Positions 239-42,686 of a stretch of 42,686 bases of DNA are shown piece by piece. The DNA is from Kalymmatonema hyalinum WJT4-NPBG1 (GTDB taxonomy: Bacteria; Cyanobacteriota; Cyanobacteriia; Cyanobacteriales; Nostocaceae). Position numbers and translations under genes: made by a program. Location of the stretch: positions 1 through 42,686 of the forward strand of contig JAHHIB010000079.1 in assembly GCA_019359075.1 (NCBI GenBank), in the 5' to 3' direction. The notes beneath the pieces were generated by a model. The model had not been told where the DNA came from and did not search any database. It saw only the letters and a program-made list of their open reading frames with translations. Position 1 is the first letter of the stretch, and each line of letters starts with the position of its first letter.

Positions 239-1923
239 CTAATCCACTTGCTTCACCAGTCCTTGCACAAGCTCAACAGCGAAGGTTTTATAGCCTACTT
301 TGTCAAACAAAATCACCACTTTATCGCCTTCGTAGCGCATCACCCGCCCTTTACCAAACTTGGTGTGAATGACACTGCTGTTGATAGGGAAAGGTTGAAA
401 CACAGTTTGCTCAACTGTGACTCCAGCTTGGCAATTATCGCAAAATCCACACTTATTCTGTATTGGTTCACCAAAATAATTGAGCAGATACTGGCGACGA
501 CAATCTCGCAATTCGGCGTAGTTTCGCATCATTTCCAAGCGCGATGTCTGGCGACAAGCCGCTGAGTCCCAAGGGGACACGCTGCGCGAACGCGTCTACG
601 CACAAATTGTTCTCGTCGTTCTCCAGCCAACGCGGCTGCTTTTGCTGCTGATTCTTGGTTCACTTCTGCCTCGCTTTTAATAACCTCGCCAGTCGGCAAA
701 ATTTCTACCGCCTCCACTTCTTCCAAGCGGCTGAGAGCTTTTGTGAGTTTATTTTGAGATAGTTCTGTTTGTTGCTGTAAATCTTCCGGCTCAAGTGGCG
801 CATCAGCCTTTTGTACTGCTTCTGCGACTTGCAAAACTTCCTCAAAATTTACCTTACCGCCACTGGCAAAAAAACGGCGGATGTTCAGGTCATTTGAACG
901 ATAAAACAGAATCGCTTTCGCCTCCTCCCCATCGCGTCCAGCGCGTCCAATTTCCTGATAATATGAGTCAATAGAATCGCTAATGTCGTAGTGAAACACA
1001 AAGCGCACATTCGATTTATCTACCCCCATACCAAAAGCAGTCGTGGCAACAATAACCTCTGCCTCATCAGCCATGAATGCAGCTTGAACTTGCTCGCGTT
1101 CTGATGCTTTCATTCCTGCATGATAATGGACGGCTTTGATTCCTTTTTTACATAAAGCTTCAGCGATTTCCTCAGTGCGCTTCCGAGTCGCAGCGTAAAC
1201 TATACCAGGCATTTCGGCAGCAGCAACACGCTTAACCAAAGCAGTTTGTTTCTCAGCTTCATCATGGAAAGTCTCCACACCCAACCAAATATTCGGACGG
1301 TCAAATCCACGTACGAATATATGCGGCTTGCGCATTCCCAAGCGTTCCACAATCTCATCCCGCACAATCGGTGAAGCGGTAGCAGTTAGGGCAAGTACAG
1401 TGGGATGACCAAGCGTATCAATCACACCACCTAAGCGCAAGTAATCAGGACGGAAATCATGTCCCCACTCGCTGATACAATGAGCTTCATCAACCACAAA
1501 CAACGAAGGTTTTGCATCCGTCAGTCGTGCAAGGACTTCCTCATTATTGAATTGTTCTGGGGCGAGAAACAAAAATTCTAGCTTTTTCTTTTCTAAGTCT
1601 GCAAACGCCTCCTCTCGTTCTGCGTTAGGTATGGCAGAGTTGACAACAGCAGCTTCAGCCACATCCTGCTCCTCAATCGCTTCTACTTGGTCATGCTGAA
1701 GGGCAATTAAAGGGGAAATAACTACAGTTGCACCGGGAAGTAACAAGGCTGCTATTTGGTAGATTGCTGATTTACCAGAACCTGTAGGCATCACAGCTAG
1801 GGTGTCGTGTCCATCAACAACAGCTTCGATGACTTGTTGCTGTCCAGGACGCAAGCTGTCGTAACCAAAAGTTTTTTGTGCAATGTCTTGAATCTGCTTT
1901 TGCTTTGAGCGCTGCCGTGCCAT
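239..1923 (-). pseudogene. recQ: RecQ ATP-dependent DNA helicase, frameshifted by a short repeat insertion
   Basis: The gene encodes a 3'-5' superfamily 2 DNA helicase of recombination repair. The first frame (1923 down to 529) holds the helicase core: Walker A PTGSGKS near residues 46-52, DEAH box in [17 protein letters not shown], and motif VI in [12 protein letters not shown]. It then runs into foreign sequence after REQFV and stops. The second frame (580 down to 239) restores the family sequence from [16 protein letters not shown], with the four-cysteine zinc site of the RQC region (C in DCRR, then CGFCDNC) and a short C-terminal domain. The break coincides with a GC-rich repeat at about 545-597. 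A truncated protein with the helicase core but no zinc domain could still be made. No intact recQ is seen elsewhere in the window. Confidence 0.9.
545..597. repeat. GC-rich palindromic repeat inserted in recQ
   Basis: About 53 bp separates the last and next recognisable RecQ codons, and 53 is not a multiple of three. Its core, GACACGCTGCGCGAACGCG, has the same layout as copies at 33626-33666 (GAGACGCTACGCGAACGCG) and 39662-39695, each preceded by GCTGAGTC. The exact borders are inferred from the expected protein sequence (V-R-S-R-L-E). Confidence 0.75.
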
Positions 1924-9735: not shown

Positions 9736-9931
9736 TCAAATACAGAAAATACCAAGTGTCGATTAACATCTAAATTTTCTGCTGAAATTATGGGTAGGCA
9801 GTTATGAGAAGTACGCTATGTAGAATAAAGAGTGAGGTAAAATTTCGTATGCCCTCCCTTGTCGTTTTTGTGTTGAATCATTGAAGTGAAAAAATTATGA
9901 TGCACTCTCTGATTTTTTCTTGATTCATGGA

Positions 9932-12076
9932 TTATCTTTTATCCACTTCTTTTAAAGATTTTAGCAGTTTATCTTCGGGAGTCTGATGAACAAAATGTGG
10001 GTAAACTACATCATCAAAAATTTTCTGGAGCTTTGCACTTCCATTTCGGATTAAATGATCGCAATCTAATTCTACAGACTCTTTTCTCCTTTTTTCCCTA
10101 TAAGCCGCTTCTGAATAGTTGCATTTTTTTATATCAGGTAACCAAGTTGAGTGAATCGTAAATCTCAAATGAAGTTCTGGGTGGCTCAGGCGATATATAG
10201 GTTTACCATTAAAATCATCAGCATGAAATATCCAAAACTCACCCTTGGGTTCATCGTCAGACAAAACAACGCAAACAATATATCCATGTGTTGATTTATC
10301 TTTACCTTCTGGAAGAGATTGAGAACTTGGTATGAATTGTGGAGAACAAGCCAAATAACCAGCAGGAAACTGAAATGATTCAACAATCTCCATTGACTCT
10401 GTATTTAAACGCAGCAATGTTGAAGGTTTGTTCTGACCTGGTAACTTTTCATATGATATTGTTCGATAATTACTTTCTTTATAAGCATCGTAAATACGCT
10501 GAGGTATGAGTTCCCAGGAAAAACCCCATGACACCCAGTAAATATTTTTTATTTTTGTTTCTGTTTCATTCTCCCGGTCTCGACAAAGTTCGCGGTGAGT
10601 ATAGACAGATAACGACCATGTACTCTCTGGATCGCTCACAAGTTTTGCATCTAGCAAAGCTCCACTTTTTCCATTAATAACGTAGCGACCTAAGAAACCT
10701 AAATCCATTGGTCCAACTAGCATACCCTCCAAGTCTTGACGCAACTGGTTTTTATCTTTGTCTTGAACCTGTTGATCGAAACGGCTAATCCACTCGGTTA
10801 CATCCCAACCATTTCGATGTCCTACATGAAGTGTAATTTTCCCGTCTTCATTTTGGTAATCAGCGGTAAAATGTGAGACTTCATATGGTACGCTAAATTT
10901 TGTAACTGGTAGATACTTTATTGGTTCATTGCACTGATTACCCGATTTTTTTAGCTGTTCACGATGGACAATATAAAAGCTGGTAAATGACTTTTGTTTA
11001 ATTAATTGAAGGAAAACTGAAGAAAACCACTTTCCTAAATTTCCTATCAATTCATTTTTTCTAATCCAATCAAAGAGAAAAGGCGAAAATATTTGTGAGA
11101 ACTCTACCATGAATGGAACGTCTGGAATGATAATATAATCTTTTGTAATCGCAATTTGATGAACTGCTTGTGAGATGTACAGCGGCTGACCGTTAAGGGT
11201 AAGCCGCCATCGTTCCATTTTTTTAGTAGTAAAATTATACCGAACTAAATCGGTAAAACTCCCAATAAATTCTTCATAAGTTAGCTCACTCTTCTTTAAT
11301 TTTTTCCAAATTTGTCTTAAAGAATTTATCCAGCAAATAATATTCAAACTTCGATTGACTATTTGTTGGTATTTGCCGTTGTAGCCTGTTGAATAGTTTA
11401 CAGTAAATAAGTCTTCAGAATCATTGACATTAGAGACATCTGTTGCTGGATGCGCGGGATTGGAGTAGGCTTGAAAAATCCGAGGAATAATAGGAAATAT
11501 GGGCAACCACTCTTTTGTTGTTCCTACAGGTTCTAGCAACTCCATTGTATCTGGGTCGATTTCATACGGACGCCCAGCATCAAAAGTAACCACAAGACGT
11601 TCTCTCGTTTGAGCAAAGGCAGTATTTAATTGGTTGCGAGAACCTAGTATTATGCTGGTACGGGCAACTCCTCCGTTATGGAACTTATAGAGTAATGAAC
11701 CATTTTTTGTGGCTTGATCGGCATAATAACAGGGCGTTTTCGCAATTCGAGTTTTGATTTTTGCTTTTCCTGCTTCAAATCCCAAACGATAAATCATGCC
11801 ATCGCCGTTATAAACTTGTGTTCCATCACCAGGAGACAATGGCGCACAAATAAAAGTATAACCGTGCAAATCTTCTGGTAACTGCTCTAGATTGGATGAA
11901 TTCCCTTGTCCTTCCTGGCTACTCGGCTTGTAAATCTGGATATCAAGTTCATCAATTTCAATTTCTGATCGACTCGCATTAATTTCCTGTTGATTATCAA
12001 ATATTTTGGGATCAACTATGACTGATTTAGGAATTGCTACGTGCGAACTATGATTCGTAGGTTGAGGCTCTCTCAT
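9932..12076 (-). CDS. Carotenoid oxygenase (RPE65/CCD superfamily), long divergent member
   Basis: Members of this family are non-haem iron enzymes that cleave carotenoids, apocarotenoids or stilbene-like compounds. The N-terminal fold signature is present (EDLHGYTFICAPLSPG, VYNGDGMIYRLGFEAG, FHNGGVARTSIILGSRNQL). The four propeller histidines that bind iron can be assigned: His209 in SNPAHPATD, His306 in AVHQIAITKDYIIIPDVPF, His402 in EVSHFTADYQNEDG and His642 in RFTIHSTWLP. At 714 residues it is much longer than the usual about 480-500, with extra segments around 235-275, 325-375 and 430-450. There is no signal peptide. It stands alone on the minus strand, with 580 bases of noncoding DNA upstream and carotenoid genes not in sight. 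The substrate is unknown, and the extra segments suggest an unusual one. Confidence 0.82.
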   Translation of the reverse strand: MREPQPTNHSSHVAIPKSVIVDPKIFDNQQEINASRSEIEIDELDIQIYKPSSQEGQGNSSNLEQLPEDLHGYTFICAPLSPGDGTQVYNGDGMIYRLGFEAGKAKIKTRIAKTPCYYADQATKNGSLLYKFHNGGVARTSIILGSRNQLNTAFAQTRERLVVTFDAGRPYEIDPDTMELLEPVGTTKEWLPIFPIIPRIFQAYSNPAHPATDVSNVNDSEDLFTVNYSTGYNGKYQQIVNRSLNIICWINSLRQIWKKLKKSELTYEEFIGSFTDLVRYNFTTKKMERWRLTLNGQPLYISQAVHQIAITKDYIIIPDVPFMVEFSQIFSPFLFDWIRKNELIGNLGKWFSSVFLQLIKQKSFTSFYIVHREQLKKSGNQCNEPIKYLPVTKFSVPYEVSHFTADYQNEDGKITLHVGHRNGWDVTEWISRFDQQVQDKDKNQLRQDLEGMLVGPMDLGFLGRYVINGKSGALLDAKLVSDPESTWSLSVYTHRELCRDRENETETKIKNIYWVSWGFSWELIPQRIYDAYKESNYRTISYEKLPGQNKPSTLLRLNTESMEIVESFQFPAGYLACSPQFIPSSQSLPEGKDKSTHGYIVCVVLSDDEPKGEFWIFHADDFNGKPIYRLSHPELHLRFTIHSTWLPDIKKCNYSEAAYREKRRKESVELDCDHLIRNGSAKLQKIFDDVVYPHFVHQTPEDKLLKSLKEVDKR

Positions 12077-17473: not shown

Positions 17474-20400
17474 ATGGCAAGCAATCAAGCTCAAAATACC
17501 AAAGTTGCAGAAATCAATCAAATACTCAGTAAAACTGAGAAAAATTTAGGAATTAGCGCAACGCAAACGACTGATGCGTCAGGAGTAGTTAGATTTTCTG
17601 TGAGTTTGAACTCAGGTATTCTCTACAATGATTTTCTTAAAAACAGTTTCAAGCCAATTCAGTCAGTGTTTAAGGCTGTAGATCCTGTTGTTCAATTGCT
17701 AACTACCAGGATTCCTTTGCTTTCCGACTTTGATGCGACTAAATCCTTTTTGAATAGAGATGATTCAAGTTCAATCAGCCTTCGCGATGTACTGCAAGTT
17801 GTAGCAGAGGGGAAATATGGAAAGGATGAAGTAGGGAAAGGGAAAAAGTATGACTTCAGTTTAATCGACCAGATTGTTGATTTCCAGAAAGTTGTCAACT
17901 CAATCCCTTCTTCTGGCTCAACTTTTGACTTGGGATATGTTGACATTGATAATACAGGTAATATTATTAATGGCTTGAAAGATACTCCAATTGCTTCTTC
18001 TATTAAACTTCCTGAAGATTTTAAAATTCCTCTACTTCAACAGCCAAAAGAGTTCACTTTTAGTCTTTTATCTGATAAAAATTCCAAAATTTTTTCCTAC
18101 GAATTACCAACTTTAAACCTTCCAAAAATCGAGTTGACTACACCAATCAAAATCCCACTGCCAATTTTACCAGTGGTAGGTATTCAAGTGAATGGATTTT
18201 TGGAAGCATCCGCTCAACTTGGATTTGGATTTGATACAACTGGATTCAAGAGTGGCAACTTCCAGGATGGGTTTTATGTTGATACTAAAGGGGATGAATT
18301 CAATCTGAAGATTGGACCAAAGTTTGGTCCTTATCTCGGTGTGACTGGTCTTGCAGAAGTTAATATTGAAGGCACAATAGGTGGAAACTTTGGATTTAAC
18401 TTAGCAGATGGTGGTGACGGGGAAATTAGATGGAATGAGATAAAAGATATCTTAGACAAGCCACAAGAGCTAATTGGGGACACAAACATAGGTGCAATTT
18501 TGGGGATTGGAGGAGCAGTGAAAATTTTCACTGTTCCTGTGTTTGAACCCACTTCTACTTTCGAGATTAAACTTGGGAAAGTTTCTGCCTCACAGGTACA
18601 AGAGCCATTTGATAAAGCACAAGAACAATTTGACAAGCTTCGCGGGTACCTAGAGCAAATTCAAGATTTAAAAAATGGATTGCCAATATCTAGGCTTGCA
18701 GAGAAGGGAAGGGATTTTGTTGTAGACAAGGCAAATCAAGCTGGCAGATGGACAAGAGAAAAGGCAGATCAATTCGGTAATTTTGTTGAAGAACAGTTTG
18801 AATACGACATACAGAAATTTAGAAGGAAATGGGACAAAGCTGAAAACTTTGTTGAAGAAAAATTCGATGCGGCTGGAAATGTTGCTAAAACAATACTTAA
18901 AGAAGGAGAAAAGCTTACTGAACTCGCAGAGAATGGTGCAAAGAAGGTATGGAATACCCTAGCAGATGGAACTGAAGAGTTCACTGATTTTATTGTTGGG
19001 AAGGGAACAACAACACTCAAGAAAAATGGTGGAAAAATCACTCAGATTGCTGCCGATCATGCAGAAACAGTTTGGGAAGGTACAAAGGTTATTTATAAGA
19101 AAGGGGAGAAAGCCGTTGAATGGGTTGATGGGAAACTCGAAAAAGGGAAGGAGTTCTTGTCAGATTTAGGCGATGATTTTAGTTTTGGACTCACTGACAG
19201 TGGTAGTTCTAATCAAGCACTACCACAGCCAACAATCCCAGGTAAACCTAGCATCCCTGTAAAACCAAGTAGCGGGATTATTTACCGACCTGACGGCAGC
19301 ATCTTTCTCCAAACAGGTATTGGTGCTGATGTACTAGAAGGTACTTCCAAGGGAGATGAACTCAAAGCAGGTGCTGGTAATGATTATGTATCTGGAAACG
19401 AAGGAGATGACAATCTCTTTGGGGAGGCGGGGAATGACATTCTGGATGGTGGAGATGGACGCGATACTATCTTTGGTGGAGGAGACAACGACACCATCAA
19501 AGGTGGAGCAGATATTGATAACCTATATGGTGGTTCCGGTAATGATCTTCTCTTTGGCGGTGAAGGTAATGACAAACTCTTTGGTGAAGACGGGAACGAC
19601 ATTCTCAAAGGTGATGCTGGCGATGATGAGCTAGAAGGTGGTGCTGGCAACGACCAACTCTATGGGGGTATAGACAATGACACTCTTTATGGCGGTGAGG
19701 ACAATGACAAACTCTTCGGTGAAGACGGGAATGACATTCTCAAAGGTGATGCTGGCGATGATGAGCTAGAAGGTGGTGCTGGCAACGACCAACTCTATGG
19801 GGGTATAGACAATGACACTCTTTATGGCGGTGAGGACAATGACAAACTCTTCGGTGAAGACGGGAATGACATTCTCAAAGGTGAGGCTGGCGATGACGAG
19901 TTAGCAGGTGGTGCTGGTATTGACCAACTATACGGAGGTATAGACAATGACACTCTTTATGGCGGTGAGGGCAATGACAAACTCTTTGGTGAAGACGGCA
20001 ATGATATTCTCTATGGTGAGGCTAATAATGACGAGCTAGCAGGTGGCGCTGATGCTGACACTCTATACGGCGGATCTGGCGATGATAAACTATCTGGGGA
20101 TGCTGGCAATGACTTGCTGCTGGGAGAAGCAGGCAATGATCTAATTGACGGTGGTACTGAAGTAGATACTGTTAGCTACGACAATTCACCAAATGGTGTA
20201 GTTGTCAATATTAATGAGGCACAAAACTACGAAAATTCTGGTGGCTCTCTCCACTCAACCATAGTTTTTGCTAACCTCATACCTACCGATACAGAACCAA
20301 ACTTTACCATCAACGCAGGCACAGCTACAGATGGCTTTGGCACTACAGATACCCTACGAAATCTGGAAAATATTACTGGTTCTGGATTTAATGACGTTCT

Positions 20401-23302
20401 AATTGGCAATAGCCAAGATAACCGCATTTTGGGCTTAGCTGGGAATGACCTGTTAGTTGGCAATGCTGGGAATGACTACTTTGACGGAGGTGAAGACAGT
20501 GATACCGTCAGCTACCGTCGCTATCCAAGTGCTGTCAACTTAGAGCAAAACCAAGCTACTGACGGTAGTGACCTAATAGTTTACGGTTACCTTACTGAGG
20601 GAGGCGATCGCCAAAATTCCAATAACTATGGCGCTGAAGACAGTGATACCGTCAGCTACCGTCGCGATCCAGGTAGAGTCAATGTCAACTTAGAGCAAAA
20701 TCAAGCTACTGATGGCTTTGGCGGCAATGACCAGATATATAATGTTGAAAATGTTGTCGGCTCTGCTTTCAATGATGAAATCATCGGCGATGCCAAAGCA
20801 AATGTCATTCACGCTGGTGATGGTGATGACATTGTTAAAGCCAGAAATGGCAATGACATCATTTTTGGCGAAGGGGGCAAAGATACTCTCTTCGGCGAGA
20901 ACGGTGATGATTTCCTAGTTGGGGGTACGGATGCCGATCGCCTCAATGGTGGAGCAGGTAACGACACGGCTTCCTATTTCACTTCAGAAACTGCTGTAGC
21001 TGTCAGCCTCACAACTGGTACAGGCTGGGCTGGGGATGCTGAAGACGATCGCCTCGAAGCTATTGAAAACTTGGAGGGTTCACAATTTGAAGATTTGCTC
21101 ATTGGCGACAGTGGGAATAATATCCTCAGTGGGTTGGGTGGCAATGACCTAATTTACGGTGAAGCTGGCGACGACTGGCTTGATGGCGGAACAGGAAGCG
21201 ATCGCCTCTACGGTGGAGATGGCAACGACAAGTTAGATGGTCAAGCTGGTGAAGACCTCCTTAAAGGTGAAGCTGGCAATGACCTCCTCAATGGTAATGA
21301 TGGCAATGACCAACTCTACGGTCAAGAAGGCAACGACACCTTAAATGGGGATGCTGGCAATGACTATCTCGAAGGTGGAACTGGTGATGACCTGCTCAAT
21401 GGGAATGATGGCAACGACCAACTCTACGGTCAAGAAGGCAAAGACATTTTGAATGGGGGCACAGGCGATGACCTCGTCGATGGCGGATTGGGCAATGACC
21501 TCCTCAATGGCGGTGATGGGGATGACCAACTTTATGGTCAAGTCGGTGAAGATACTCTGGATGGTGGATTGGGCAATGACCTCTTAGATGGGGGAGACGG
21601 TAATGACCAACTCAATGGTGGCGAAGGTAACGATCGCCTCTACGGTCAAGTCGGTGAAGACACTCTGAATGGAGGTACTGGTAATGACCTCTTAGATGGA
21701 GGTGCTGGTAATGACCATCTATTAGGCGGTGATGGCAACGATCAACTTTACGGTCAAGCTGGTGAAGACAAGCTTGAAGGTGGCGTAGGAAATGATGCTC
21801 TCTACGGAGGTACTGAGGCAGATACCCTTTTAGGGCAAGCTGGTGATGACTACCTTGATGGGGGAGCGGACAATGACGTACTTGATGGCGGCGAAGGTAA
21901 CGATCGCCTCTATGGTCAGCAGGGAAATGATAAGCTTGCCGGTAACACTGGGGATGACTACCTTGATGGCGGAGCGGACAATGACAAACTCAATGGCGGC
22001 GAAGGTAACGATCGCCTCTACGGTCAGCAAGGCTACGACATCCTAGATGGCGGTGCAGGCGCTGACTTCCTGGATGGTGGCTCAGACGATGACTATCTCT
22101 ATGGTAGAGATGGAAGCGATCGCCTTTACGGTCAAGCAGGTCAGGACTACCTTGATGGCGGCACTGGCGATGATCGGCTTGAAGGCGGTACTGGTGATGA
22201 CCAACTCTTTGGGCAGCAGGGTCGTGACTACCTCGATGGCGGCACTGGCGATGACTTCTTGTATGGAGGCGATGAGGGCGATCGGCTCCTAGGTCAAGCG
22301 GGTAATGACTACTTAGATGGCGGTACTGGCGATGACCAACTCTCAGGTAACGAGGGCAATGACCAACTCTATGGTCGGGACGGCAATGACACCCTAGATG
22401 GCGGTGCTGGTAATGATTACCTAGAAGGTGGAAACGGCAAAGATCAACTAACTGGGAGCAACGGTAATGATTTCCTCTACGGTCAAGAAGGTAACGATAC
22501 CCTGGATGGCGGTGCTGATAATGACAACGTATATGGTGGCTCTGGTGATGACCAGATCTTAGGTGGCGATGGTAACGATCTACTCTCTGGTCAAGAAGGC
22601 AACGACACGCTTGATGGTGGTGCTGGCGATGACTATCTCGAAGGAGGTTCTGGTAATGACCAACTTACCGCTGGATTAGGCAATGACCAAATCTACGGTC
22701 AGGCAGGCAATGACCTCCTTAAGGGTGATGCTGGTAATGACTACTTGGAAGGCGGATTTGGCGATGACCAACTCATGGGCGGCGACGGTGATGACCAACT
22801 CTTTGGTCAAGAAGGCAACGACACGCTTGATGGAGGGAGTGGTAATAACAATCTTCAGGGTGGCAACAGCGCCGACATCTTAGTAGGGCAAGACGGAGAT
22901 GATTATCTCTTTGGTAATGACGGTGACGACCAGCTCTACGGCGGCGCTGGTAACAACTCCCTAGAGGGTGGTGCTGGCAACGACTATCTCACAGGTGGCG
23001 ATGGTGACAATATCCTCAATGGTGGAACAGGTGAAGATATATTATACGGCGGCAGCGGTCGCGATATGTTTGTACTAGCGGCTGGTGCTGGAAGCGACAC
23101 CATTTTCAACTTTGAAGTCGGTAGCGATTACTTGGGATTAATGAATGGTTTAACCTTTGAAAATCTCACCATTACTCAAGGCATTGGCACTAATACCAGC
23201 GACACACTAATCACTAATCGAGGAAATGGTGAACTCTTAGCCACAGTTAGAGGGGTAGAAGCAAATACCCTTAGTCTGTGGGATTTTACTAACCTGGGGT
23301 AA
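17474..23302 (+). CDS. Giant RTX (hemolysin-type calcium-binding repeat) protein
   Basis: The 1942-residue protein has three parts. Residues 1-370 are a beta-rich N-terminal region with no family I recognise. Residues about 375-600 are charged, amphipathic helices rich in Lys, Glu and Ala (such as VEEKFDAAGNVAKTILKEGE), followed by a Pro-rich linker. From about 615 to 1850 nonapeptides of the form GGxGxDxLx dominate, broken by non-repeat modules with DTVSYRR or TASYFTSETAVAVSL. The C-terminal about 80 residues (GRDMFVLAAGAGSDTIFNFE and onwards) are the terminal domain common in type I secreted cyanobacterial RTX proteins. It should fold on binding calcium outside the cell, as a surface layer, adhesin or motility protein. 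There is no signal peptide, and no type I secretion genes are nearby. AGGAG at 17458-17462 precedes the ATG by 11 bases. Confidence 0.9.
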   Translation: MASNQAQNTKVAEINQILSKTEKNLGISATQTTDASGVVRFSVSLNSGILYNDFLKNSFKPIQSVFKAVDPVVQLLTTRIPLLSDFDATKSFLNRDDSSSISLRDVLQVVAEGKYGKDEVGKGKKYDFSLIDQIVDFQKVVNSIPSSGSTFDLGYVDIDNTGNIINGLKDTPIASSIKLPEDFKIPLLQQPKEFTFSLLSDKNSKIFSYELPTLNLPKIELTTPIKIPLPILPVVGIQVNGFLEASAQLGFGFDTTGFKSGNFQDGFYVDTKGDEFNLKIGPKFGPYLGVTGLAEVNIEGTIGGNFGFNLADGGDGEIRWNEIKDILDKPQELIGDTNIGAILGIGGAVKIFTVPVFEPTSTFEIKLGKVSASQVQEPFDKAQEQFDKLRGYLEQIQDLKNGLPISRLAEKGRDFVVDKANQAGRWTREKADQFGNFVEEQFEYDIQKFRRKWDKAENFVEEKFDAAGNVAKTILKEGEKLTELAENGAKKVWNTLADGTEEFTDFIVGKGTTTLKKNGGKITQIAADHAETVWEGTKVIYKKGEKAVEWVDGKLEKGKEFLSDLGDDFSFGLTDSGSSNQALPQPTIPGKPSIPVKPSSGIIYRPDGSIFLQTGIGADVLEGTSKGDELKAGAGNDYVSGNEGDDNLFGEAGNDILDGGDGRDTIFGGGDNDTIKGGADIDNLYGGSGNDLLFGGEGNDKLFGEDGNDILKGDAGDDELEGGAGNDQLYGGIDNDTLYGGEDNDKLFGEDGNDILKGDAGDDELEGGAGNDQLYGGIDNDTLYGGEDNDKLFGEDGNDILKGEAGDDELAGGAGIDQLYGGIDNDTLYGGEGNDKLFGEDGNDILYGEANNDELAGGADADTLYGGSGDDKLSGDAGNDLLLGEAGNDLIDGGTEVDTVSYDNSPNGVVVNINEAQNYENSGGSLHSTIVFANLIPTDTEPNFTINAGTATDGFGTTDTLRNLENITGSGFNDVLIGNSQDNRILGLAGNDLLVGNAGNDYFDGGEDSDTVSYRRYPSAVNLEQNQATDGSDLIVYGYLTEGGDRQNSNNYGAEDSDTVSYRRDPGRVNVNLEQNQATDGFGGNDQIYNVENVVGSAFNDEIIGDAKANVIHAGDGDDIVKARNGNDIIFGEGGKDTLFGENGDDFLVGGTDADRLNGGAGNDTASYFTSETAVAVSLTTGTGWAGDAEDDRLEAIENLEGSQFEDLLIGDSGNNILSGLGGNDLIYGEAGDDWLDGGTGSDRLYGGDGNDKLDGQAGEDLLKGEAGNDLLNGNDGNDQLYGQEGNDTLNGDAGNDYLEGGTGDDLLNGNDGNDQLYGQEGKDILNGGTGDDLVDGGLGNDLLNGGDGDDQLYGQVGEDTLDGGLGNDLLDGGDGNDQLNGGEGNDRLYGQVGEDTLNGGTGNDLLDGGAGNDHLLGGDGNDQLYGQAGEDKLEGGVGNDALYGGTEADTLLGQAGDDYLDGGADNDVLDGGEGNDRLYGQQGNDKLAGNTGDDYLDGGADNDKLNGGEGNDRLYGQQGYDILDGGAGADFLDGGSDDDYLYGRDGSDRLYGQAGQDYLDGGTGDDRLEGGTGDDQLFGQQGRDYLDGGTGDDFLYGGDEGDRLLGQAGNDYLDGGTGDDQLSGNEGNDQLYGRDGNDTLDGGAGNDYLEGGNGKDQLTGSNGNDFLYGQEGNDTLDGGADNDNVYGGSGDDQILGGDGNDLLSGQEGNDTLDGGAGDDYLEGGSGNDQLTAGLGNDQIYGQAGNDLLKGDAGNDYLEGGFGDDQLMGGDGDDQLFGQEGNDTLDGGSGNNNLQGGNSADILVGQDGDDYLFGNDGDDQLYGGAGNNSLEGGAGNDYLTGGDGDNILNGGTGEDILYGGSGRDMFVLAAGAGSDTIFNFEVGSDYLGLMNGLTFENLTITQGIGTNTSDTLITNRGNGELLATVRGVEANTLSLWDFTNLG
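19571..19975 (+). repeat. Three 135-bp tandem repeats inside the RTX gene
   Basis: Near-identical units begin at GACAAACTCT at 19571, 19706 and 19841, and a fourth diverging unit starts at 19976. The period of 135 bp equals 45 residues, or five RTX nonapeptides. The high DNA identity of the first units, compared with the varied repeats further on, points to recent amplification or slippage. Confidence 0.88.
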
Positions 23303-37480: not shown

Positions 37481-38639
37481 TCAGCGTCCCCGACTGACGG
37501 CAATAATCATGGTTTCCAGCCTGTCATCTTCTAGGACGATATCTGCAACCTCACGAGCCACATCGGTTCCCCCTTTGCCCATCGCCACACCAACTTGTGC
37601 AGCCTTGAGAGCAGGAGCATCATTGATGCCATCGCCTGTCATGGCAACAACTTTTCCTGCTGCTTGCAAAGCTTGGACGATTTGCAGTTTATTGCTGGGA
37701 CTGATGCGGGCAAAGACATCCACTTTGTCAGACAGTGCTGTCAATGCTTCTGGAGAGAGATTGTTGAGGTTAGTTGAATCGAGAATTTCTAGTTTCTCAT
37801 CTCTGCTCAACCCTAATTCCTTGGCGATCGCATAAGCAGTTGGGCTTTGATCCCCGGTAATCATCACCGTATCAATGCCAGCTTGATGAAAGCCTGCTAT
37901 CAACTCTTTGGCTCCCTTTCTGATGGGGTCTGCCATCCCAACCAAACCCAGCCATGTCAGGTCTTGTTCGGGATTGTTCCCGTTGCTGGTGTCATTAACG
38001 TGGCGATAAGCGACCCCAAGCACCCGTTTCATTAAAACCGGAAAAACTGCGGTGCCTCATTACTAAGCGCGTTCGTTTAGCGCCAACGATCTGGGCGGAA
38101 AAATCGCCCAAACCTGAGATTTTGGAGGCATGCAGGAGTATTTATACATGGGCGATTTTTCCTCTGGCTCGGCAGATTTTTCAATCGTTGTGACCCAACC
38201 GCAGCGCTTTCCCTGCCATGCGGTCATTTTCAATCTCCATCGCCTCCCTATCTTCTTCTGTCAGAGGCACCACTTCCCCATTTTTCACCCACCATTTGCA
38301 TATCCGCACAACTTCTGCTGGGCTGCCTTTGACAGCAACAAACTTGTGCTGCTCATCAGTCCCATGTACACTACTCATGATGTTACGGTTTTCTGAGCGC
38401 AGGTTGGTTTGCAACAGTGAGTACTTTTGCGTAAGCTCTGTCACATTCACCCCGGCACTGATAGCCATGTAAATCAAGGCATTCTCTGTTGCCGAACCTT
38501 TGGCGGAAAACTCACTATCTTGCTCTTGGTTGACTTGACTTTCGTTGCAGAGAACCAATACATGAATCAGCTTTAACAGTTCATCGTAAGCATAGGGGTT
38601 GATATCCTCATCCCCGTTGATAAACTGACCGCCAGACAC
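37481..38639 (-). pseudogene. Remnant of a P-type cation-transporting ATPase
   Basis: Two frames keep the nucleotide-binding and phosphorylation domains of a calcium-type (P2-like) ATPase. The first (38639-38181) has the N-domain with FSAKGSATENAL and VAVKGSPAEV, ending at MAGKALR. The second (38032-37481) resumes at RVLGVAYRHV and has GMADPIRKGAKELI, MITGDQSPTAYAIAKELGL and MTGDGINDAPALKAAQVG. The DKTGT phosphorylation site, the actuator domain and all membrane helices are missing, and the end stops at IAVSRGR where a membrane segment should follow. The break between the frames is a 172 bp insertion. Confidence 0.88.
38027..38198. mobile_element. Small insertion in the P-type ATPase remnant, possible MITE
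   Basis: Foreign sequence separates the codons for ALR and VLGV. It is bounded on both sides by CCG (38024-38026 and 38199-38201), a possible 3-bp target duplication. Inside, GGAAAAATCGCCC (38097-38109) and GGGCGATTTTTCC (38150-38162) are perfect inverted arms. Clear terminal inverted repeats at the ends were not seen, so the element type is open. Confidence 0.6.
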
Positions 38640-38826
38640 CGTGATGTGTTTACGTCAGATACCACATTCATTAAGTTCTTAGCTACCTCGGATTTGCCAT
38701 TTGTAGAATAGTTTTGGGCACTTTGAGAGCTAAACAAACAAAGCCTGCCGATCCAGGCTCATTCTATGCATTTTTAAAAAGAATTGGTATAAGACAAAGA
38801 ACGCACTGAAGCTCTTTGACTCTTTC

Positions 38827-39907: not shown

Positions 39908-40732
39908 GTGGCATCTATCCACAATTTACAAAGGCGGCATCTACTTGGCATTTGGATGGCAGGCATCACTGCAGCGATTTCGTCACCAGGATGTGCTATT
40001 AAGCGCAAATTAGGGAGTATATCAATGACAACAGACGAGCAACACATACAGGCAGTCGCTCTTGGACGCTTACTAGCACGACCAACGCCTCAGCCCGTAG
40101 GAGGTGCCGTATCACTCGGTCTGCAACCACTGGGACTAGATGCCAAGCGCGACGCTCTCCTCTACGTGCCTGAAAGCTACCAGGCATCAAAACCTGCACC
40201 GTTGGTGTTGATGCTACATGGCGCTGGCGGCAATGCACAAGGTGGTCTAACTCCATTCCTAAAACTTGCTGATGCAGCTGGAGTTATCCTGCTTGCACCG
40301 TCCTCTAGCCGCCAAACATGGGATGTGCTGTTCGGACAGTACGGTCCTGATGTCACTTTTATCGACTCTGCGCTAGCAGTCACGATGAGCCGCTACGCTA
40401 TAGACCCGACACGCATCGCGGTTGAGGGCTTCTCTGATGGTGCCTCTTACGCACTTAGTATCGGTATCACCAACGGCGACTTGTTCACTCATGTCATAGC
40501 GTTCTCGCCAGGGTTTATGGCACCGGCTTCGCAGCAAGGCAAGCCGCGCATCTTCATTTCACATGGTAAGTCGGACAACGTTCTGCCAATCAACCGATGC
40601 AGCCGCAAGGTTGTGCCGCAGCTACAAAATGCTGGCTACGACGTGTTATATCAGGAGTTCAACGGTTCCCACACAGTCCCCCCAAATATTGCAGACTCTG
40701 CACTGACCTGGTTTCTTGCTATGCAGGATTGA
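39908..40732 (+). CDS. Alpha/beta hydrolase (esterase or PHB-depolymerase-like)
   Basis: The fold and active site are readable: oxyanion loop LMLHGAGGNAQGG, nucleophile Ser176 in GFSDG, Asp223 in HGKSDNVLP and His255 in NGSHTVP. The family covers carboxylesterases, feruloyl esterases and polyhydroxybutyrate-depolymerase-like proteins; the substrate is open. Two starts compete. GTG at 39908 gives 274 residues with a Tat-like leader (QRRHLLGIWMAGITAAISS) but no Shine-Dalgarno. ATG at 40025 has AGGGAG seven bases upstream and gives a cytosolic 235-residue enzyme that keeps the whole catalytic domain. The leader looks too signal-like to dismiss, so I keep the longer form. Confidence 0.8.
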   Translation: MASIHNLQRRHLLGIWMAGITAAISSPGCAIKRKLGSISMTTDEQHIQAVALGRLLARPTPQPVGGAVSLGLQPLGLDAKRDALLYVPESYQASKPAPLVLMLHGAGGNAQGGLTPFLKLADAAGVILLAPSSSRQTWDVLFGQYGPDVTFIDSALAVTMSRYAIDPTRIAVEGFSDGASYALSIGITNGDLFTHVIAFSPGFMAPASQQGKPRIFISHGKSDNVLPINRCSRKVVPQLQNAGYDVLYQEFNGSHTVPPNIADSALTWFLAMQD

Positions 40733-40770
40733 GGCTTCCCCGGCTTTTTGTCCAAATAAGGGAGTACCAA

Positions 40771-40904
40771 AAAATAAATTATCCATTATGTACGGTGGGT
40801 TAGGCGCACGACAGTTAAGGTTTGACATTCAGGACTTGCATTGCGGCGTAACCCACCATTGTTTGGGTCACTACAAATTGAAGATTTTTTAATTGGAAGT
40901 CCCT
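40771..40904. repeat. Dispersed 134-138 bp repeat, copy B
   Basis: This copy of 29295-29432 is in the same orientation. GGTGGGTTAGGCGCACG and GCGGCGTAACCCACC form a long imperfect hairpin. It sits 38 bases after the hydrolase stop. The 300 bases after it, up to the tandem units, hold only AT-rich sequence and a HIP1-bearing GC-rich repeat near 41056. Confidence 0.75.
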
Positions 40905-41204
40905 AAATGCAAGCGTTGTTTGGATAGCTGGGGGATTTTTGGTTTACTGACTCGCCTTAAAACTGTAGGCTTTCGCCAATTGCCCAAGAAGACATTTTTA
41001 TAAAAAAACCAATACTAGCAAGCATCCTAGCAATTTCTTTGAGCAAAATTTAATGAGCGATCGCCGCAGGCGGGCACTCCGTGCCATCGCGCTAAGAAGC
41101 GCATAAGTCAAATTCACCGACATTTACTAAGGATTAGAAGGAGAGCAAAGCAAGCTGAACCTTCAAATCCAACAATTTCTTAATCAACATTTCTGAGCAA
41201 ACAT

Positions 41205-41459
41205 ATGACGACATACGACCCTAATTACTCTCCACAACCTTGCGAATTCACAATTCCTATCAAATTGAATATACCCATCGAAATCGAGCCAAAACTATTG
41301 GTAAAAGCCCCCGGAATTGTTAGACAAAAAGTTCCTGTCTATCTCGAACCCGATATCTACCTCGAACCAGAAGTGCAAGCACTACCACCCGTGTGTACTT
41401 TAAAGAATGGTTACAACAAAGAATACTCACAAGAGCAACTAGTAGCGCAACAATCATAA
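41205..41459 (+). CDS. Tandem 84-residue protein, copy 1, unknown function
   Basis: The protein opens MTTYDPNYSPQPCEFTIPIK and is rich in Pro, Ile, Val and Glu, with alternating beta-type stretches (FTIPIKLNIPIEIEPKLLV, QKVPVYLEPDIYLEPEVQ) and two cysteines (Cys13, Cys64). It has no signal peptide or membrane helix. The second half repeats a YLEP/IYLEPE motif. Conservation of the frame in all three copies supports a real gene. GAAGGAGAGC lies in the leader at about 41138, but it is some 55 bases upstream, too far to serve this ATG. I do not recognise the family. Confidence 0.75.
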   Translation: MTTYDPNYSPQPCEFTIPIKLNIPIEIEPKLLVKAPGIVRQKVPVYLEPDIYLEPEVQALPPVCTLKNGYNKEYSQEQLVAQQS

Positions 41460-41585
41460 GCAAGCTAGGTACTTACTGAGTGCATAAGTCAAATTCACCG
41501 ACATTTACTAAGGATTAGAAGGAGAGCAAAGCAAGCTGAACCTTCAAATCCAACAATTTCTTAATCAACATTTCTGAGCAAACAT

Positions 41586-41840
41586 ATGACGACATACGAC
41601 CCTAATTACTCTCCACAACCTTGCGAATTCACAATTCCTATCAAATTGAATATACCCATCGAAATCGAGCCAAAACTATTGGTAAAAGCCCCCGGAATTG
41701 TTAGACAAAAAGTTCCTGTCTATCTCGAACCCGATATCTACCTCGAACCAGAAGTGCAAGCACTACCACCCGTGTGTACTTTAAAGAATGGTTACAACAA
41801 AGAATACTCACAAGAGCAACTAGTAGCGCAACAATCATAA
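41586..41840 (+). CDS. Tandem 84-residue protein, copy 2
   Basis: The protein and its leader are identical to copy 1, including silent positions, so the duplication is very recent or kept uniform by gene conversion. Each copy brings its own leader and could be expressed independently. Confidence 0.75.
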   Translation: MTTYDPNYSPQPCEFTIPIKLNIPIEIEPKLLVKAPGIVRQKVPVYLEPDIYLEPEVQALPPVCTLKNGYNKEYSQEQLVAQQS

Positions 41841-41966
41841 GCAAGCTAGGTACTTACTGAGTGCATAAGTCAAATTCACCGACATTTACTAAGGATTAGA
41901 AGGAGAGCAAAGCAAGCTGAACCTTCAAATCCAACAATTTCTTAATCAACATTTCTGAGCAAACAT

Positions 41967-42221
41967 ATGACGACATACGACCCTAATTACTCTCCACAAC
42001 CTTGCAAATTCACAATTCCTATCAAATTGAACATACCTATCGAAATCGAGCCAAAACTATTGGTAAGAGCCCCCGGAACTGTTAGACAAAAAGTTCCTGT
42101 CTATCTCGAACCCAATATCTACCTTGAACCAGAAGTGCAAGCACAACCACCTGTGTGTACTTTAAAGAATGGGTACAACAAAGAATACTCGAAAGAGCAA
42201 CCAGTAGTACAACAATCATAA
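41967..42221 (+). CDS. Tandem 84-residue protein, copy 3, diverged
   Basis: It differs from copies 1 and 2 at eight residues: E14K, K34R, I38T, D50N, L60Q, Q76K, L79P and A81V. The frame, length and both cysteines are kept. Several changes replace an acidic or neutral residue by a basic or neutral one, so copy 3 is less acidic. It is probably the older copy, or one outside the conversion tract. Confidence 0.75.
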   Translation: MTTYDPNYSPQPCKFTIPIKLNIPIEIEPKLLVRAPGTVRQKVPVYLEPNIYLEPEVQAQPPVCTLKNGYNKEYSKEQPVVQQS

Positions 42222-42562
42222 GCAAGATAGGCAATTATTGGATGCTATGATTCATCTTAGCTTCTGATTTTTACTCACAATTTGCCAGTTTTAGGAAGCC
42301 TTTAACTACCCTAAATTGCGTGGTGGGCTTCCCATCCTCTTTTTTTTCCAAGTTTTTAAGCTGCTGCGCATTTAATTTGCAGGTTATTTTTTTCTGACAT
42401 TTATTAGTCATTTGTCCTTTGTCCTTTGTTTGTACTAATAAGTATGACCAAGAAAGAACGAAGGTGTCAGTCGTCAGCAGCCAGAATGGCGGCTGTGCGA
42501 CTCGCGGATGAGTAGAGGGTACTCACTGCGCCCACCAAATTGAAGATTTAGTGGTGCTTCTA
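42222..42562. other. Intergenic region between the tandem genes and the right IS end
   Basis: No gene is supported. A heptamer array of TTTGTCC lies at 42411-42424. The TA dinucleotide at 42561-42562 is the likely IS target. Confidence 0.5.
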
Positions 42563-42686
42563 GTAGTTCACCACAGAGATTTTGACAGGTGTCCAGGTTA
42601 CTGAGAAACTAGTTGAAAATCTCGGTATTCACAAATGGCAGAAAAATACATCGTTAACCTCACACAAGAGGAATATTCATCACTAA
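42563..42686 (+). mobile_element. Right-edge insertion sequence end, same element as at position 1
   Basis: The sequence is identical to the left-edge copy, in inverted orientation. The transposase frame starts at 42635 (MAEKYIVNLTQEEYSSL) and leaves the window after 17 codons. GTAGTTCACCACAG next to TA marks the element end. Confidence 0.65.

Follow-up and report, generated by a model that had tools for sequence, protein, structure and literature searches.

In curli, the major subunit CsgA is accompanied by CsgB, a minor subunit that serves as the anchor. The locus described here may be likened to curli in plan, by analogy, in that many copies of a small beta-type subunit would be combined with one related protein as a possible anchor; it differs in that there is no match to a curli family, no apparent export signal and no neighbour family shared by more than 5 of 23 loci, and it is not a member of that system. 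A second point of comparison is the CpcD linker domain of phycobilisome rods (PF01383), which in full length forms the C-terminus of one relative of the genes studied here, downstream of a second small gene; the window's proteins and six companion proteins lack the domain, and the fusion was seen in a single genome. A third is a free-standing helix protein, which shares with the companion described below a C-terminal domain of 33 positions and, where inspected, has neither the beta motif nor the array. Finally, a promoter element common to many genes in filamentous cyanobacteria is found in the hormogonium SigJ regulon, whose J-Box is given in the published motif as GGGAATACT (PMC6495340). The box described here is alike in occurring before many genes, but it reads GTGCATAAGT-nn-ATTT followed by a CTAttnA-type element, and comparison of the leader by eye with the motif as published ruled out its being the J-Box (PMC6495340).

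The window, i.e. the whole stretch of 42,686 nucleotides of Kalymmatonema hyalinum that was analysed, carries three copies of a small gene close to its right end. Judged from sequence, they belong to a module that is formed by several tandem small genes and then, mostly, by one longer gene with the same motif at its start and a different end. The families and the gene plan are undescribed in the sense that no match over the cut-off was found in the curated libraries searched, a statement which concerns families and plan, and not function.

The tandem array and the locus around it

A preliminary description of this DNA had reported a head-to-tail triplication of an 84-residue gene together with its leader, and this is confirmed (Table 1). 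TRF gave a period of 381 with a score of 2150, 97% matches and 0% indels, and each unit consists of a 104-base leader and an intact 84-codon frame. The units had been called exact, which is right for their length and, for units 1 and 2 (0 of 381 bases different), also for their sequence, but not for unit 3, which has 21 of 381 bases different from the other two, 15 of them coding, six in the 3' tail and none in the leader, so that the leader of about 104 bases has indeed been retained with each copy. Likewise, the eight substitutions ascribed to unit 3 are those of its protein (E14K, K34R, I38T, D50N, L60Q, Q76K, L79P and A81V, among 84 residues) and not those of its DNA; length and both cysteines (13 and 64) are kept, as had been stated. 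The perfect 381-bp periodicity extends 143 bases into unit 3 and gives an exact repeat of ~905 bp, for which the copy number in a draft assembly is not certain. The array is not due to chance, since a fourth copy with 92% identity is present on another contig of the genome and the frames appear to be under constraint.

Table 1. Positions of the array, its leader elements and its flanks in the window.
Feature	Position	Strand	Remarks
Esterase-like gene (by eye)	39908..40732	+	Synteny anchor; 90% to L036 10454-11477
Repeat unit 1 (leader, small gene, tail)	41101..41481	+	381 bp, same as unit 2
Promoter-like element, unit 1	41101..41130	+	GCATAAGTCAAATT (GC before, not GT) and TACTAA; not an exact pattern match
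Leader hairpin, units 1, 2 and 3	41131..41170, 41512-41551, 41893-41932	+	GGATT.GAAGG...CCTTC.AATCC; from folding
Small gene copy 1	41205..41459	+	84 aa
Promoter-like element, unit 2	41480..41511	+	GTGCATAAGTCAAATT (one mismatch to pattern) and TACTAA
Repeat unit 2	41482..41862	+	381 bp
Small gene copy 2	41586..41840	+	84 aa, identical to copy 1
Promoter-like element, unit 3	41861..41892	+	As unit 2: GTGCATAAGTCAAATT and TACTAA
Repeat unit 3	41863..42243	+	381 bp by period; TRF end 42231
Small gene copy 3	41967..42221	+	84 aa, 8 residues changed
Insertion sequence, left end	42560..42686	+	Transposase start ~42635; contig ends inside

The fourth copy was found by a search of the window's own genome, on contig C55 at 1322-1573 of the minus strand. 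Window 41861-42332 recurs there in inverted orientation at 89.9%, and the fourth copy is thus an inverted duplicate of unit 3 with ~100 bases beyond it. The insertion sequence in which the window ends, presumably of the IS630 family, is represented in the genome by 14 near-identical ends, counting that of the window, nine of them visibly at contig ends, and C55 begins with the end of a transposase-like frame. A single contig of Tolypothrix campylonemoides (L036) matches both flanks, that of the esterase at 90% over 1,024 bp and that of C55 at 90.6% over 1,638 bp, with a scar between them (9900-10330) in which the start of the fourth copy adjoins an inverted unit 1 leader. Because both flanks lie within one contig of this relative, with the scar of an array between, the two contig ends very probably belong to a single locus. 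Its most likely order is the esterase, the three units, the insertion sequence, the companion, the inverted fourth copy and an FAD-oxidoreductase-like gene, the flanking genes being named by eye. L036 is a relative that lost both array and companion. Elsewhere in the window, a P-type-ATPase-like gene (by eye; 37484-38651, minus strand) has matches in two frames where L036 has an open frame of 1014 residues, and long repeats of 27, 54, 108 and 135 bp occupy 19555-22833, which by eye are glycine-aspartate-rich and RTX-like.

The small gene is uncommon, and where it occurs it is usually repeated. At E 0.001 it is present in 37 of 217 genomes of the window's family, at least two matches being found in 31 of the 37, if one fragment each in G511 and G512 is counted as a second match; in the types of ~58 residues, two matches were counted as one gene. 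At E 0.1, 14 of 60 genomes were matched, the window's own included and some weakly. Across the order, 15 of 388 genomes were matched with the first profile and 18 with the motif profile, three of the latter being weak single matches: G154 is a plausible single-copy relative, and no convincing frame lies behind the match in G024 or G059. Among named genomes, 21 loci represent nine genera (Brasilonema, Scytonema, Calothrix, Tolypothrix, Hassallia, Iningainema, Mastigocoleus, Nostoc and Rivularia) and one uncultured cyanobacterium, and 19 of them hold two to five tandem small genes at a spacing of mostly ~300-330 bp. These named loci overlap with the genome survey (e.g. L046 and G002) and the two sets are not independent; some rows of the profile alignments (A1, A2) also came from loci of the organisms later scored. 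In genomes that have the family, tandem copies are usual. The search for tandem copies elsewhere that the preliminary description had proposed was thus answered in both sets, and its idea of a one-off recent amplification of an orphan gene is not supported, with more than one match in 31 of 37 genomes and a companion usually in the locus. Among BLAST clusters of neighbouring genes, none is common to more than 5 of 23 loci.

The same description had held that the protein matches nothing known, which stands: the small protein has no match over the cut-off in Pfam or NCBIfam (two proteins each), and Pfam returned for the window's proteins a sub-threshold Antimicrobial23 match only, with no CpcD and no curlin. 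Among 20 small proteins there was no curlin repeat, two other families alone being matched, both below threshold, and none of the 20 was matched by PADLOC models at E 0.1. PHROGs gave nothing below E 0.05 for 36 members (one stood at E 0.056), and a sequence search of the PDB gave nothing below E 0.77. The family was not found on plasmids or phages, none of 25 pattern matches in viral contigs was confirmed, and literature searches for the family returned nothing relevant, judged by title and abstract. The best-kept part of the protein is an N-terminal motif, C-x-F-x-[IV]-P-I-x-L-x-[IV]-P-[IV]. Hydrophobic alternation at residues 14-28 is above that of shuffles (median shuffle fraction 0.004, first 33 of 36 rows), and at a second proposed strand (residues 43-57) it is insignificant (0.124); the earlier view of an unrecognised beta-type protein with two cysteines is supported. 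The C-terminal tails vary between positions of the array. Inspection by eye revealed no evident signal peptide, the best 15-residue hydropathy being 0.86-1.31 in three alignment rows, with N-termini such as MTTYDPNYSP. The AlphaFold2 model of the small protein shows no fold (pLDDT 66.4, pTM 0.17); shallow alignments, or folding only upon assembly, may be the reason for the poor models.

All copies compared look to be under constraint. Among 16 pairs, dN/dS ranged from 0 to 0.47, with 0.12-0.18 in six same-position pairs of L043/L048 and L038/L039, 0.47 in L032_4/L033_3, and 0.34-0.43 within the window's genome, where changes are few. For unit 3 against unit 1, omega is 0.34 on 15 changes only, and the suggestion that one copy had been free to diverge is not supported. 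The copies of one genome are near-identical, as had also been noted. As to their homogenisation, the protein tree, built from 52 rows with few columns, is poorly resolved and its bootstrap unsettled. In 7 of 17 multi-copy genomes (the window's, L035, L040, L044, L045, L046 and L047, with L035 and L044 weakly supported) the copies of a genome group together, which bears out the earlier suggestion only in part; on the other side, copies of the Mastigocoleus genomes (L043, L048) pair by position, and those of Brasilonema with Scytonema RU_4_4, of Tolypothrix with Hassallia, and of L041 show no clear grouping or are mixed. Such a pattern fits arrays that turn over or are homogenised in some lineages and remain stable among close relatives.

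The companion gene and its exchangeable ends

In the window's genome the companion (C55 369-968, plus strand) adjoins the fourth copy, and its product has a small-protein-like start and a helix-like end (SLNDGLAFTVNTVGTIMFMGKLANYSWE). The start is a looser form of the small-protein beta motif; in a profile comparison the first 42 columns align (E 6.7e-5, probability 63.6), which suggests a modest N-terminal link between the two proteins. In 25 of the 31 multi-match genomes the last small gene is followed on its own strand, at a distance of less than 1 kb, by a match to the helix domain, a count that rests mostly on the coordinates of the helix match, the full companion having been inspected in some, and that includes G446, whose companion frame ends before the last residues. 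Outside the 25 are G000, with the companion on another contig, G020, where it is split over contig ends, G023, whose companion lacks the helix, G423 (also named L040), whose array has no companion, and G511 and G512, which are rearranged. Of the 21 named loci, at least two small genes are present in 19, a companion match in 19 (in two frames in L034, cut by the contig end in L051), and both in 18.

Over 217 genomes, the helix domain and the small gene are associated in their presence: 31 genomes have both, 6 the small gene only, 58 the helix domain only and 122 neither (Fisher p 6.7e-9, which is indicative only, as related genomes are not independent, and for the same reason linkage counts overstate the number of events). 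The helix domain is thus present in 89 of 217 genomes, and the 58 without a small-gene match mostly have short single-copy frames, G421 and G444 having long companion-type frames. Free-standing helix proteins of ~53-108 residues (...NYSW[DE]) carry the same 33-position domain as the companion C-terminus; the genes inspected have no N-terminal beta motif, no array and differing surroundings, and five of the proteins had no Pfam or NCBIfam match. Such proteins (...KICNYSWD...) were seen in L229, L230, L231, L233, L236 and others, mostly one per genome, and a helix-domain match was also seen at 5001-5084 of L265, an IMG/VR contig with a viral label.

Six companions gave sub-threshold or one-member matches only in Pfam and NCBIfam, the best being NNH5 (E 0.0075, one of the six), and none has a CpcD domain. 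The AlphaFold2 model of the companion (pLDDT 51.9) predicts two low-confidence strands at the N-terminus and a C-terminal helix at 163-199, whose block means do not reach 80-90 before residue 171. Of 14 companions, 13 have their hydropathy peak at this C-terminus (1.22-1.76 over 19 residues), which comes close to the level required of a membrane helix; the exception is the companion of the window's own genome, whose peak (1.48) lies at the N-terminal motif and not at the helix. In G466 (L244:4427-4906), one continuous frame combines a small-gene start with the second half of a companion, apparently by recombination within the module.

The same plan is found with other C-termini. In all four genomes seen of genus g84 (G077, G118, G191 and G215), short genes of ~57 residues are followed by a gene of ~245 residues with the same motif at its start, the remaining ~200 residues having no Pfam or NCBIfam match; one stretch of G118 (L164) has ten motif-bearing frames, one of them 177 residues long. 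In G295, a genome 67% complete, the gene downstream of a 74-residue small-gene frame (the second small gene, at 941-1162, minus strand) encodes 150 residues and joins the motif to a full-length CpcD linker domain (L061/L159:407-856, minus strand; PF01383, E 4.4e-20). The motif occurs in 7 of 20 genomes of the family of G295, among which a second CpcD fusion was not noticed. To judge from these genes, the N-terminal motif is a module that can be joined to different C-termini.

The leader and its promoter-like box

Each unit of the window begins with a promoter-like element. Its exact pattern, GTGCATAAGTNNATTT, was matched 86 times over 40 genomes, 13 of which have it; the window's genome accounts for 15 of the matches and no genome for more than 19, and the reversed pattern has 0 in the same 40. 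The copy on C55 is an exact match, but the window's three units are not (units 2 and 3 are off by one base). The consensus of 33 sites of G000 and G002 (loci L120-L152) is AAGTGCATAAGTTgATTTcaCTtaCAcCTAtt.Aa. Within the 150 bases searched before each gene, the strict form TGCATAAG stands in other arrays before the first unit only. A loose box is found 93-143 bases before the first gene in 8 of the 21 named loci (L039, L041, L042, L045, L047, L049, L050 and L051), a box is also present in L038 (by eye), before the L036 remnant and before the C55 copy, and loose matches precede later units, without the strict form, in L032, L039 and L046. A box and leader on every unit are particular to the window's array. 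In L041 and L045 the first unit is preceded by two boxes in tandem. The module can do without the box, since G005 and G010 have the module and no exact match.

Among the products of other genes preceded by the box are a UDP-glycosyltransferase, a PAP2/chloroperoxidase-like protein, a subtilase, a TPR-CHAT protein, a GDSL lipase and a TPS-secreted protein. It also precedes the small genes L128:585-872 and L147:3519-3833, the former with a product that has a cysteine-rich tail and no Pfam match. By eye, the similarity between about 6 of the 33 sites extends further into their flanks, and these may all derive from a single repeated stretch. Box strings in the literature gave, among the matches listed, only papers unrelated by title, and Rfam gave no match up to E 5 for 40733-42686. 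The leader hairpin is weak, as z is below -2 at 8 of the 33 sites only (mean z -1.1) and two-sided change is seen in 1 of 5 predicted pairs, and on these figures it was rejected as a general feature of box genes.

Possible function and competing explanations

A tandem array next to a motif-sharing longer gene with exchangeable ends leads to the reading that the locus encodes a subunit-plus-adaptor module, in which repeated small subunits and one adaptor form an intracellular assembly, a proposal made tentatively and at somewhat less than even odds. From the observed linkage, order, shared motif and differing ends we infer an assembly, its docking and its stoichiometry. The small proteins would be cytoplasmic subunits that assemble via the amphipathic strand of the N-terminal motif, and the longer protein would enter the same assembly through its own copy of the motif. 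Its C-terminus would then tie the assembly to a partner, by the helix in the window's family, by CpcD in one genome and by the ~200-residue domain in g84. Tandem copies would provide an excess of subunit over adaptor, and recombination between copies may keep them alike, at least in the window's genome. As every unit of the window carries a promoter-like element, each gene there may perhaps be transcribed separately. The AlphaFold2 models lend this proposal no support, the small protein being predicted without a fold and the companion with confidence only from ~171. A fuller version, which we regard as improbable, is that this would be a new intracellular assembly whose beta-motif subunits polymerise, with an exchangeable adaptor that, depending on the lineage, docks the polymer on a membrane-like surface, on a phycobilisome rod or on some other partner, and with a subunit-to-adaptor ratio set by array length.

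The strongest rival, itself rather unlikely, is plain dosage: a soluble factor would be needed in bulk, copies and per-unit promoters would raise its output, and the companion would merely be a co-transcribed relative. The box and leader on every unit of the window, the identity of units 1 and 2 and the variation of copy number between loci are all in keeping with it; a bystander is less easily reconciled with a companion that is found 3' of the array in most multi-match genomes (25 of 31) and has the N-terminal motif in common, or with its replacement elsewhere by longer downstream genes with other C-termini.

Two further explanations are given a low probability each. The small genes might be precursors that are processed or modified, the companion aiding maturation or export, which would suit genes that are small, multi-copy, tandem and cysteine-bearing, with C-terminal tails that vary by position and with a box also found before the small cysteine-rich peptide gene of L128. 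Against precursors are the conservation, which is best in the N-terminal motif, the absence, among BLAST clusters of neighbours, of a modifying-enzyme or transporter family recurring in more than 5 of the 23 loci and the absence of a family match over the cut-off. Alternatively, in a conflict or addiction system, the hydrophobic C-terminus of the companion would be toxic and the small proteins would neutralise it. The C-terminal hydropathy peak of 13 of 14 companions, the patchy distribution, the position of some loci beside WD40-, CHAT- or caspase-like genes (by eye) and, among the matches listed, one caspase match ~1 kb from the G023 array point that way. Of the 89 genomes with the helix domain, however, 58 have no small-gene match (mostly with short single-copy frames, G421 and G444 again having the long ones), PADLOC matched none of the 20 small proteins, and caspase neighbours could not be shown to be in excess: there are 4-26 caspase matches per genome in 32 genomes (E 1e-10) and the neighbour cluster is mixed, and no association is put forward.

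An assembly artefact, the true genome having fewer or more copies, is very improbable: a perfect repeat of ~905 bp in a draft of 174 contigs and a contig that terminates inside a multi-copy insertion sequence would invite one, but unit 3 and the fourth copy are distinct from units 1 and 2, five-copy arrays occur in L045 and L046, whose records are titled nearly complete genome, and such an artefact could alter the copy number, not the tandem nature.

Even without the mechanism, proteins that were orphans are brought together into one system of array, companion, free-standing helix protein and promoter-like element, and the last of these, of which a genome may have as many as 19 exact sites, comes to light. 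If the subunit-plus-adaptor proposal is true, filamentous cyanobacteria would have a new modular way of building scaffolds with interchangeable docking ends, one of which would point to the light-harvesting antenna.
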